Below are positions 7,125-60,136 of a stretch of 64,000 nucleotides of DNA, one piece after another. The notes under the pieces are model-generated. The model had not been told where the DNA came from. It saw nothing but the letters and a program-made list of their open reading frames with translations, and did not search any database. The stretch's first letter is position 1. The number at the start of each line of letters is the position of its first letter. Where the stretch lies: positions 1 to 64,000 of the forward strand of contig NZ_OZ060383.1 in the NCBI RefSeq assembly GCF_964059015.1, given 5' to 3'. The position numbers were made by a program, and so were the translations under genes. The stretch is from Buchnera aphidicola (Hyalopterus amygdali) (GTDB lineage Bacteria > Pseudomonadota > Gammaproteobacteria > Enterobacterales > Enterobacteriaceae).

Positions 7125-8537
<1,413 letters not shown>

Positions 8538-20480: not shown

Positions 20481-20626
20481 TTTTAATTTTATTAAAAAAT
20501 ATATTATTTATTTTTTCATATTAAATAAATCTTTTAATTGTTAATAAAATTTTTTTAAAAAAATAAACAATTTATTTTTTAATATATTTAAATTTTTATA
20601 AATGTATTTAAAATATGGAGTTTATT

Positions 20627-24367: not shown

Positions 24368-25225
24368 ATGATTAGTAAAGTACAGATGTTGTCTGTAACA
24401 GCACTAGGTAATTTAGATGCTTATATTAGAATAGCTAATTTATGGCCCATGTTATCTATTAAAGAAGAAAATTCATTAGCTAAACGTTTGCGTTATCACG
24501 GTGATTTAGATGCTGCGAAAACTTTAATTCTTTCTCATCTTCGTTTTGTTATTCATATTTCTCGCCATTATTCAGGATACGGTTTACTTCAAGCTGACTT
24601 AATACAAGAAGGTAATATTGGTTTAATGAAAGCAGTGCGAAGATTTAATCCAGAGATAGGAGTGCGTCTTGTTTCTTTTGCTGTTCATTGGATTAAATCA
24701 GAAATACATGAATATGTATTACGTAATTGGAGAATTGTTAAAGTAGCTACTACTAAGTCTCAAAGAAAATTATTTTTTAATTTAAGAAAAAGCAAAAAAA
24801 GATTAGGTTGGTTTAATGAAGAAGAAATTGAAATAGTAGCTCGGGAATTAGGTGTAAGCAATGAAGATGTAAGAGAAATGGAATCCAGAATGTCAGCTCA
24901 AGATATTACTTTTAATGCATTTCCAGAAGAGGATGTAAAAGATGGGAAAATAAATAATAATATGCTTTATTTACAAGATAAAACTTCTAATTTTGCTAAT
25001 GGACTTGAACAAGATAACTGGGATAAACATGCTACCGATAAATTAAGTAGTGCTTTATTAAAATTAGATGAACGCAGTCGAAATATTATTCGCGCACGTT
25101 GGTTAGATAATAAAAAAAAGAGTACTTTACAAAAAATAGCAAATGATTATGGTATTTCTGCTGAACGTGTTCGGCAATTAGAACAAAATGCTATGAAAAA
25201 ATTAAAAATAGCTATAGAAAATTAG
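24368..25225 (+). CDS. rpoH: RNA polymerase heat-shock sigma factor RpoH (sigma-32)
   Basis: RpoH directs RNA polymerase to heat-shock promoters such as the one at 18296-18324. Region 2 ([40 protein letters not shown]), the RpoH box ([10 protein letters not shown]) and the region 4 helix-turn-helix ([20 protein letters not shown]) are intact. It has 285 aa against 284. Together with rpoD it probably makes up the whole sigma repertoire of this organism, as reported for Buchnera. Confidence 0.98.
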
Positions 25226-58246: not shown

Positions 58247-60136
58247 TTAATCATCTAAAAAACTACGTAACACTTCTGATCGACTAGGGTGACGAAGTTT
58301 TCTTAATGCTTTTGCTTCTATTTGTCTTATTCTTTCACGAGTAACATCAAATTGTTTTCCTACTTCTTCTAAAGTATGATCAGTATTCATATCAATCCCA
58401 AAACGCATACGAAGTACTTTTGCTTCACGAGCTGTTAGACCTGATAAAACATTATGTGTAGCTGATCTTAAACTTTCCGATGTAGCTGAGTCTAGTGGCA
58501 ATTCTAGTGTTGTGTCTTCTATAAAATCACCTAAATGAGAATCATCATCGTCTCCAATGGGTGTTTCCATAGATATTGGTTCCTTTGCTATTTTTAATAC
58601 TTTTCGAATTTTATCTTCAGGAATCATCATTTTTTCAGAAAGTTCTTCTGGAGTAGGTTCTCGACCTATTTCTTGAAGCATTTGTCTAGAAATTCTATTT
58701 AACTTATTAATAGTTTCGATCATATGTACGGGTATTCGAATAGTTCTTGCTTGATCGGCAATAGAACGAGTAATGGCTTGTCTTATCCACCATGTGGCAT
58801 AAGTTGAAAATTTATAACCTCGACGATATTCAAATTTATCTACTGCTTTCATCAATCCAATGTTACCTTCTTGAATTAAGTCTAAAAATTGTAATCCTCT
58901 ATTAGTATATTTTTTAGCAATAGAAATAACTAATCTTAAATTAGCTTCCACCATTTCTTTTTTTGCTCTTTTAGCTTTTGCTTCTCCAATAGACATTCGT
59001 TTATTAATATCTTTAACTTGTTCAATTGTTAAACCTGTTTCTTTTTCTATTTGAATTAATTTGTCTATACTAAAAAAAACTTCTTCTTTAATATATTCTA
59101 ATTTATTAGACCACGTTTGATTTGAATCCTGTTCCTTTCTAAACCAATTTTTATCAGTTTCTCTTCCTAGAAAAATTTTGAAAAAATTTTTCTTCGGCAT
59201 TTTGCATTTTTCAATACATAATTTCATAATAGTTTTTTCTTGTTTTTTAACTCTATTCATCATGTTACGCATATTATTCACTAAATGATCAAATTGTTTT
59301 GGGACTAATCTAAATTGTTTAAATATTTCTGAAAGGTGATAAATTTCTAATAGTGAATCTTTATGATTTCTATTCTTTTCTTTAATCGTATTACTTGTAC
59401 TAGTATACTGTTTTCGTAATTCTTTAAACTTTTCGTTTGCTAATTCTGGATCAATGCTATTTTCATCGTCGTTCTCATCGTCGTTCTCATCGTCGTTCTC
59501 ATCGTCGTTCTCATCGTCGTTCTCATCGTCGTTCTCATCGTCGTTATTATGAGTGTTGGGAACTTCATCTAAAATTTCAGAATTGATATGAATCGTTGAG
59601 GGATGAGAAAAAATTTCTTCATTATTTGGATCGACAAAGCCAGTTATTATATCTGATAATCTTATTTGACCAGTTTTAATTCGATCATATTGCTCAAGAA
59701 GATAACTAATAGCTTCTGGATATTCTGATACGGAAGATTGAACTTGATTAATTCCTTCTTCAATGCGTTTAGCTATATCAATTTCACCTTCTCTTGTAAG
59801 TAATTCGACAGTTCCCATTTCTCGCATATACATACGAACAGGATCAGTGGTTCTGCCAAATTCAGATTCTACATTAGATAAAACTTGTGTAGCTGCTTCA
59901 ACTGCATCTTCATCTGTATCTGTATTTATTTCGTTTAAAATTAAATCATCTGCATCAGGTGCTTCTTCTACAACTTGAATTCCCATATCGTTAATCATCT
60001 GAATAATGTCATCAATTTGTTCAGAGTCAATAATTTCTTCTGGCAAATGATCATTAATTTCAGAATAGGTTAAATACCCTTGCTCCTTACCATGTGTCAC
60101 AAGGAGCTTAAGTTGTGACTTTGGGTTTTTCTCCAT
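58247..60136 (-). CDS. rpoD: RNA polymerase housekeeping sigma factor RpoD (sigma-70)
   Basis: Sigma-70 directs RNA polymerase to most promoters. Region 1.1 is followed by 1.2/2 start [14 protein letters not shown], then the non-conserved acidic region. After it come region 2 ([35 protein letters not shown]), region 3 and the region 4 helix-turn-helix ([20 protein letters not shown]), all nearly identical to E. coli. It has 629 aa against 613. The excess is an exact DDEN repeat at residues 199-226, in the region where E. coli has an irregular Asp/Glu run. It is the last gene of rpsU-dnaG-rpoD. Confidence 0.98.
59463..59546 (-). repeat. 12-bp tandem repeat, seven copies, in rpoD
   Basis: The unit TCATCGTCGTTC (plus strand) recurs seven times head to tail starting at 59463, 59475 and so on; the last copy ends with A instead of C. 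Six copies are identical. On the coding strand each unit gives Asp-Asp-Glu-Asn. The unit is half G+C, in sharp contrast to its surroundings, and keeps frame whatever the copy number. Confidence 0.95.

Follow-up and report, generated by a model that had tools for sequence, protein, structure and literature searches.

The acidic loop of a Buchnera housekeeping sigma factor, RpoD, carries a 12-bp coding minisatellite

The housekeeping sigma-70 factor of this Buchnera genome carries within its acidic loop a coding minisatellite, that is, a series of head-to-tail DNA copies of a 12-bp unit that goes beyond what the protein demands. It is likely that RecA-independent slippage expands and homogenises a length-tolerant, probably disordered acidic loop, in which purifying selection keeps the reading frame and the acidity.

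The gene, rpoD, lies on the minus strand (58247..60136 of the 64,000-nucleotide stretch analysed, referred to as the window) and was identified as an ORF of 629 aa that matches E. coli RpoD along its whole length and contains six Pfam sigma-70 domains above cut-off, regions 1.1, 1.2, the non-conserved region, 2, 3 and 4 following in order. In codon register the array encodes (DDEN)7 at residues 199-226 (59459..59542, minus strand). Units 1-6 are all GACGATGAGAAC, while the last or edge unit (59459..59470, minus strand) is GACGATGAAAAT, with two silent differences, both to codons common in the window. Tandem Repeats Finder delimits an exact 12-bp periodic tract of 6.9 copies at 59463..59545 on the same strand (period 12, match 100%, score 166). 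The seven copies, six of them identical, that a preliminary description had reported in rpoD were therefore borne out by Tandem Repeats Finder and by the codon register; the array was also found where it had been placed (59463..59546), although that span is 4 bp off the codon register and base 59546 falls outside the exact period. The G+C content, 0.49 in the 84 bp as first given vs 0.27 window-wide, agrees with the half-G+C unit described in AT-rich DNA.

The run of bases matching at lag 12 extends over 71 bases; when the window was simulated 20 times with a Markov model, the longest run at any lag from 7 to 60 was 11-14. Five arrays scoring at least 80 in Tandem Repeats Finder were detected in 264 kb sampled from the genome, the rpoD array with 6.9 copies and the other four with 1.9-2.1. 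A mobile or dispersed repeat was ruled out, as the 72-bp core formed by the six identical units has a single matching place in the 646,967-base genome; plasmid records searched with the array gave no meaningful match. That the array is an artefact of assembly or sequencing is hardly credible: this genome was seen as one assembly, but ordinary reads are longer than 84 bp, the silent edge differences mark the array and similar arrays occur in relatives.

The window also contains an imperfect 64-bp tandem duplication at 20485-20614 (2.0 copies, 77% match), and a 104-bp unit repeated 1.9 times with 77% match occurs at 7765-7956 of locus L132 (about 617765-617956 of the genome's contig C1); neither is spanned by an ORF of at least 120 codons. 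The latter is G-rich for this genome and perhaps represents tandem structural-RNA genes, which is a guess. A second sigma-70-type match (window 24398-25207, 27% identity) is presumably rpoH; its counterpart crosses one or two stop codons in five of 36 Buchnera genomes (G003, G019, G029, G031, and G032), where the stops may merely be the gene's end.

The codons of the array evidence copying at the level of DNA. GAC, GAG and AAC, used in the units of this genome (G000), account for 11%, 7% and 12% of their synonyms in the window, respectively, and the probability that five further units match the first spelling by independent choice is 4e-16. Agreement of six DDEN spellings on any spelling would arise by chance with a probability as high as 0.07, because common codons dominate; the improbable part is the agreement on a rare spelling specifically, not agreement as such. 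Since rare codons are exactly repeated, copying happened at the DNA level, in support of the slippage origin first proposed, and selection on amino acids alone (convergent DDEN with no DNA copying) is ruled out. When the protein was held fixed and the codons were redrawn from the gene, the observed periodicity was reached in 0/400 draws for G000, and in 0/400 and 1/400 for G008 and G010, two of its three nearest relatives, but was not significant in the third, G001 (p 0.10); DNA-level significance hence extends to two of the three related 12-bp arrays. Under this null p<0.01 was obtained for 3/36 Buchnera RpoD and for 0/79 other RpoD (a set of 80 rows from which one truncated row was dropped).

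The pLeu plasmid of G000 is nearest, among the 20 of 35 matches listed, to that of Schizaphis graminum (82.5%), and G000 is probably a symbiont of the Rhopalosiphum/Schizaphis group. The four genomes with 12-bp units (G000, G001, G008, and G010) form one clade (support 96/90), and the cross-species comparison proposed in the preliminary description showed that unit and copy number differ between these related species (3 to 8 units per array), so that an array identical in all was not seen at the species level. G008 has seven copies of GAAGACGAAAAC plus an edge unit, eight in total; G001 has three units, GAAGATGAAAAC; and G010 mixes GAAGATGACAAC with GAAAATGACAAC in the order ABABAA, followed by an edge unit, an order that would fit what a 24-bp duplication leaves. 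The array also ends in GAA AAT in two relatives of G000. Units differ less within than between genomes in G000 (0.57 differences per 12 bp within vs 2.24-3.09 from others) and in G008 (0.25 vs 1.38-3.09); G010 offers no contrast (2.33 within vs 2.03 from G001), its pairwise count being partly inflated by the counting of out-of-phase units. Units are species-specific despite a dS of 0.47-0.66 from G000 to the three relatives, which speaks for the recent homogenisation that had been suggested. Outside the loop, rare D, E and N codons of G000 are shared with the three relatives at 5/15, 6/14 and 6/15 sites, and the probability that all 18 rare codons of the units survived since before the split, assuming independent sites, is 5e-5 to 5e-4. 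Taken together with the dS values, this low sharing indicates that the six identical units would hardly pre-date the split, an age that cannot comfortably be assigned to them from these comparisons.

Homogenisation of the units by homologous recombination or gene conversion instead of slippage is very improbable. Species-specific homogenisation is expected from either process, but recA was not found in 36/36 Buchnera genomes, in a search whose control was found in 14/14, and units of 12 bp are short for homologous recombination. As recA was undetected, slippage of whole units is likely the mechanism. The retention of mutS in G000 speaks against it; mismatch repair does not act on 12-base loops. 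Instability driven by a hairpin was ruled out: no strong hairpin was found in the array strand, the folds reaching z values of -1.1 and -1.7 at best vs shuffles. In the slippage explanation, replication slippage without RecA would duplicate or delete whole in-frame 12-bp units, and repeated gain and loss of units would re-homogenise the array to a lineage-specific spelling; selection would purge frameshifts and losses of acidity, and changes in length would be tolerated, the loop probably forming a disordered acidic brush in which the precise order of residues would count for little. That a period of four codons keeps the frame, as initially pointed out, is consistent with this scheme. Ongoing slippage is inferred from one genome per species.

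The array is situated in a part of the protein known from E. coli sigma-70. Residues 199-226 fall within Sigma70_ner, the non-essential or non-conserved region (Pfam PF04546, 228 bits; residues 139-364, 59045..59722, minus strand), and align with the acidic stretch of E. coli sigma-70, which at this position has an irregular acidic run, as the preliminary description had it; the tract also precedes region 2 (residues 395-465 in Pfam), again as described. Both the E. coli alignment and PF04546 thus place the array in the acidic stretch between regions 1.2 and 2, that is, the acidic loop of sigma-70. The variable loop, delimited here by aligning 36 RpoD sequences from Buchnera with 80 others, comprises 57 aa (residues 172-228; 59453..59623, minus strand). 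In the predicted structure of RpoD, residues 171-227 have pLDDT <50 and lack secondary structure; the whole model is poor (mean pLDDT 53.6, with 319/629 residues <50), and for this reason the shapeless loop is weak evidence. In E. coli the loop corresponds to residues 167-213 and is reported as not resolved owing to its dynamic behaviour (PMC7822876). The Buchnera loop is probably disordered.

Length change in Buchnera RpoD is confined to this loop. The gene was present in 36/36 Buchnera genomes, and the protein minus the loop measures 572 aa in 34/36, the remaining two (573 and 584 aa) being attributed to start-codon choice. In contrast, the loop itself ranges from 36 to 63 aa (sd 7.0) in the 36 Buchnera, vs 37-55 aa (sd 3.3) in 79 other RpoD. 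It contains on average 17.6 acidic residues (range 12-31) in Buchnera vs 21.1 in the others, and the arrays raise this number to 26 in G000 and 31 in G008. These figures would fit a selective reading, in which AT-biased mutation erodes the acidity of the loop and expansions supplied by slippage are fixed for restoring negative charge. However, most Buchnera are array-free, and many have 12-20 acidic residues in the loop. Moreover, any duplication in an acidic loop adds charge, and therefore charge compensation is inseparable from neutrality here; it is a possible reason for retention of the array, although a rather unlikely one. The retention is most simply explained by the tolerance of a disordered acidic loop.

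Tuning of sigma by the length of the tract, as suggested in the preliminary description, is not supported. In its heritable form, copy number would differ from clone to clone or inside a single aphid and would set global transcription like a tuning knob. Species do differ in copy number, as described above, and an effect of the loop on promoter complexes has been reported; on the other hand, the same source reports a weak effect of deleting the entire E. coli loop (PMC7822876). A global factor is, in addition, an unlikely site for frequent variation, and such a role is not required by the data; it is quite improbable. The same doubt, to the same degree, applies to the more specific version, a putative slippage-driven length dial in which a copy number variable both among and inside clones of this aphid clade would shift promoter opening genome-wide and replace lost regulators.

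Repeats unrelated to the 12-bp units have arisen independently in the same loop of other lineages. The loop of G053 contains an exact 42-bp duplication, whose periodicity was reached in 0/300 codon draws. Among proteins, P0005, a metagenome RpoD of 626 aa on a 4814-base contig, shows EQNTEEDD x4 in the loop (seen as protein) and is, outside the repeat, 97.9% identical to G034, whose loop measures 40 aa. P0122 and P0123 (RpoD of E. coli and Shigella flexneri) have two tandem copies of 10 aa in the loop, and P0121, an E. coli-like RpoD, a 47-aa repeat. These protein cases come from the best 120 matches of each search, out of 8000 or 7991 word-sharing candidates, and are examples, not a census. 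P0122 and P0123 resemble the Buchnera array as in-frame tandem duplications in the same loop, but hold two copies only, unlike the seven of G000, and their bacteria are RecA-proficient. When 48 additional RpoD from the family were scanned (20 hand-picked small genomes plus the best 28 of 119 genomes searched), one passed p<0.01, with loose loop limits that started too far upstream in many rows. The 80 kept loci of a named genome collection included no Buchnera.

The loop can also be stable. Like its Buchnera counterpart in protein position and acidity, the E. coli loop differs in being irregular, free of a DNA repeat and of near-constant length in 60 sampled genomes. The loop region was matched in 5375/5426 E. 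coli genomes, and in 59/60 evenly sampled ones it came in one full-length piece. In NZ_CP117020.1 (2376586-2376855) the match is split into two and has 270 bases where 300 were expected, which suggests that 30 bases have been deleted from the rpoD loop. The Aphis-type RpoD P0003, P0004, and P0006-P0008 are near-identical and all of 624 aa. Based on the E. coli and Aphis-type loops, the loop is not unstable everywhere; an array, once present, seems to feed further change.

In-frame coding minisatellites are already known, and the rpoD array adds one in an essential factor. The tolA repeats of Blochmannia, an ant endosymbiont, are likewise in frame and differ in unit and copy number between species, but their units measure 81-102 bp and belong to an envelope protein, compared with 12 bp in a housekeeping sigma factor (PMC4389277). 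Slippage in the same genus is described for Buchnera poly(A) tracts; that is transcriptional slippage, an RNA-level frame correction at homopolymers, whereas the rpoD array involves whole in-frame DNA units (PMC3164680). In the open-licence literature, no title or abstract describing a repeat in RpoD was found. The word "rpoD" is absent from the main text of studies on four M. persicae Buchnera strains (PMC3890641) and on 14 Aphis Buchnera (PMC11813355); the repeat survey in the latter covers units up to 10 bp, and a 12-bp unit would therefore escape it.

The rpoD array is a candidate marker for Buchnera strains, and the loops of 36-63 aa constitute a natural length series for probing the role of the sigma-70 acidic loop. 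In Buchnera, with recA undetected, an essential protein of elsewhere constant length has one segment in which tandem copying has rewritten the sequence again and again.
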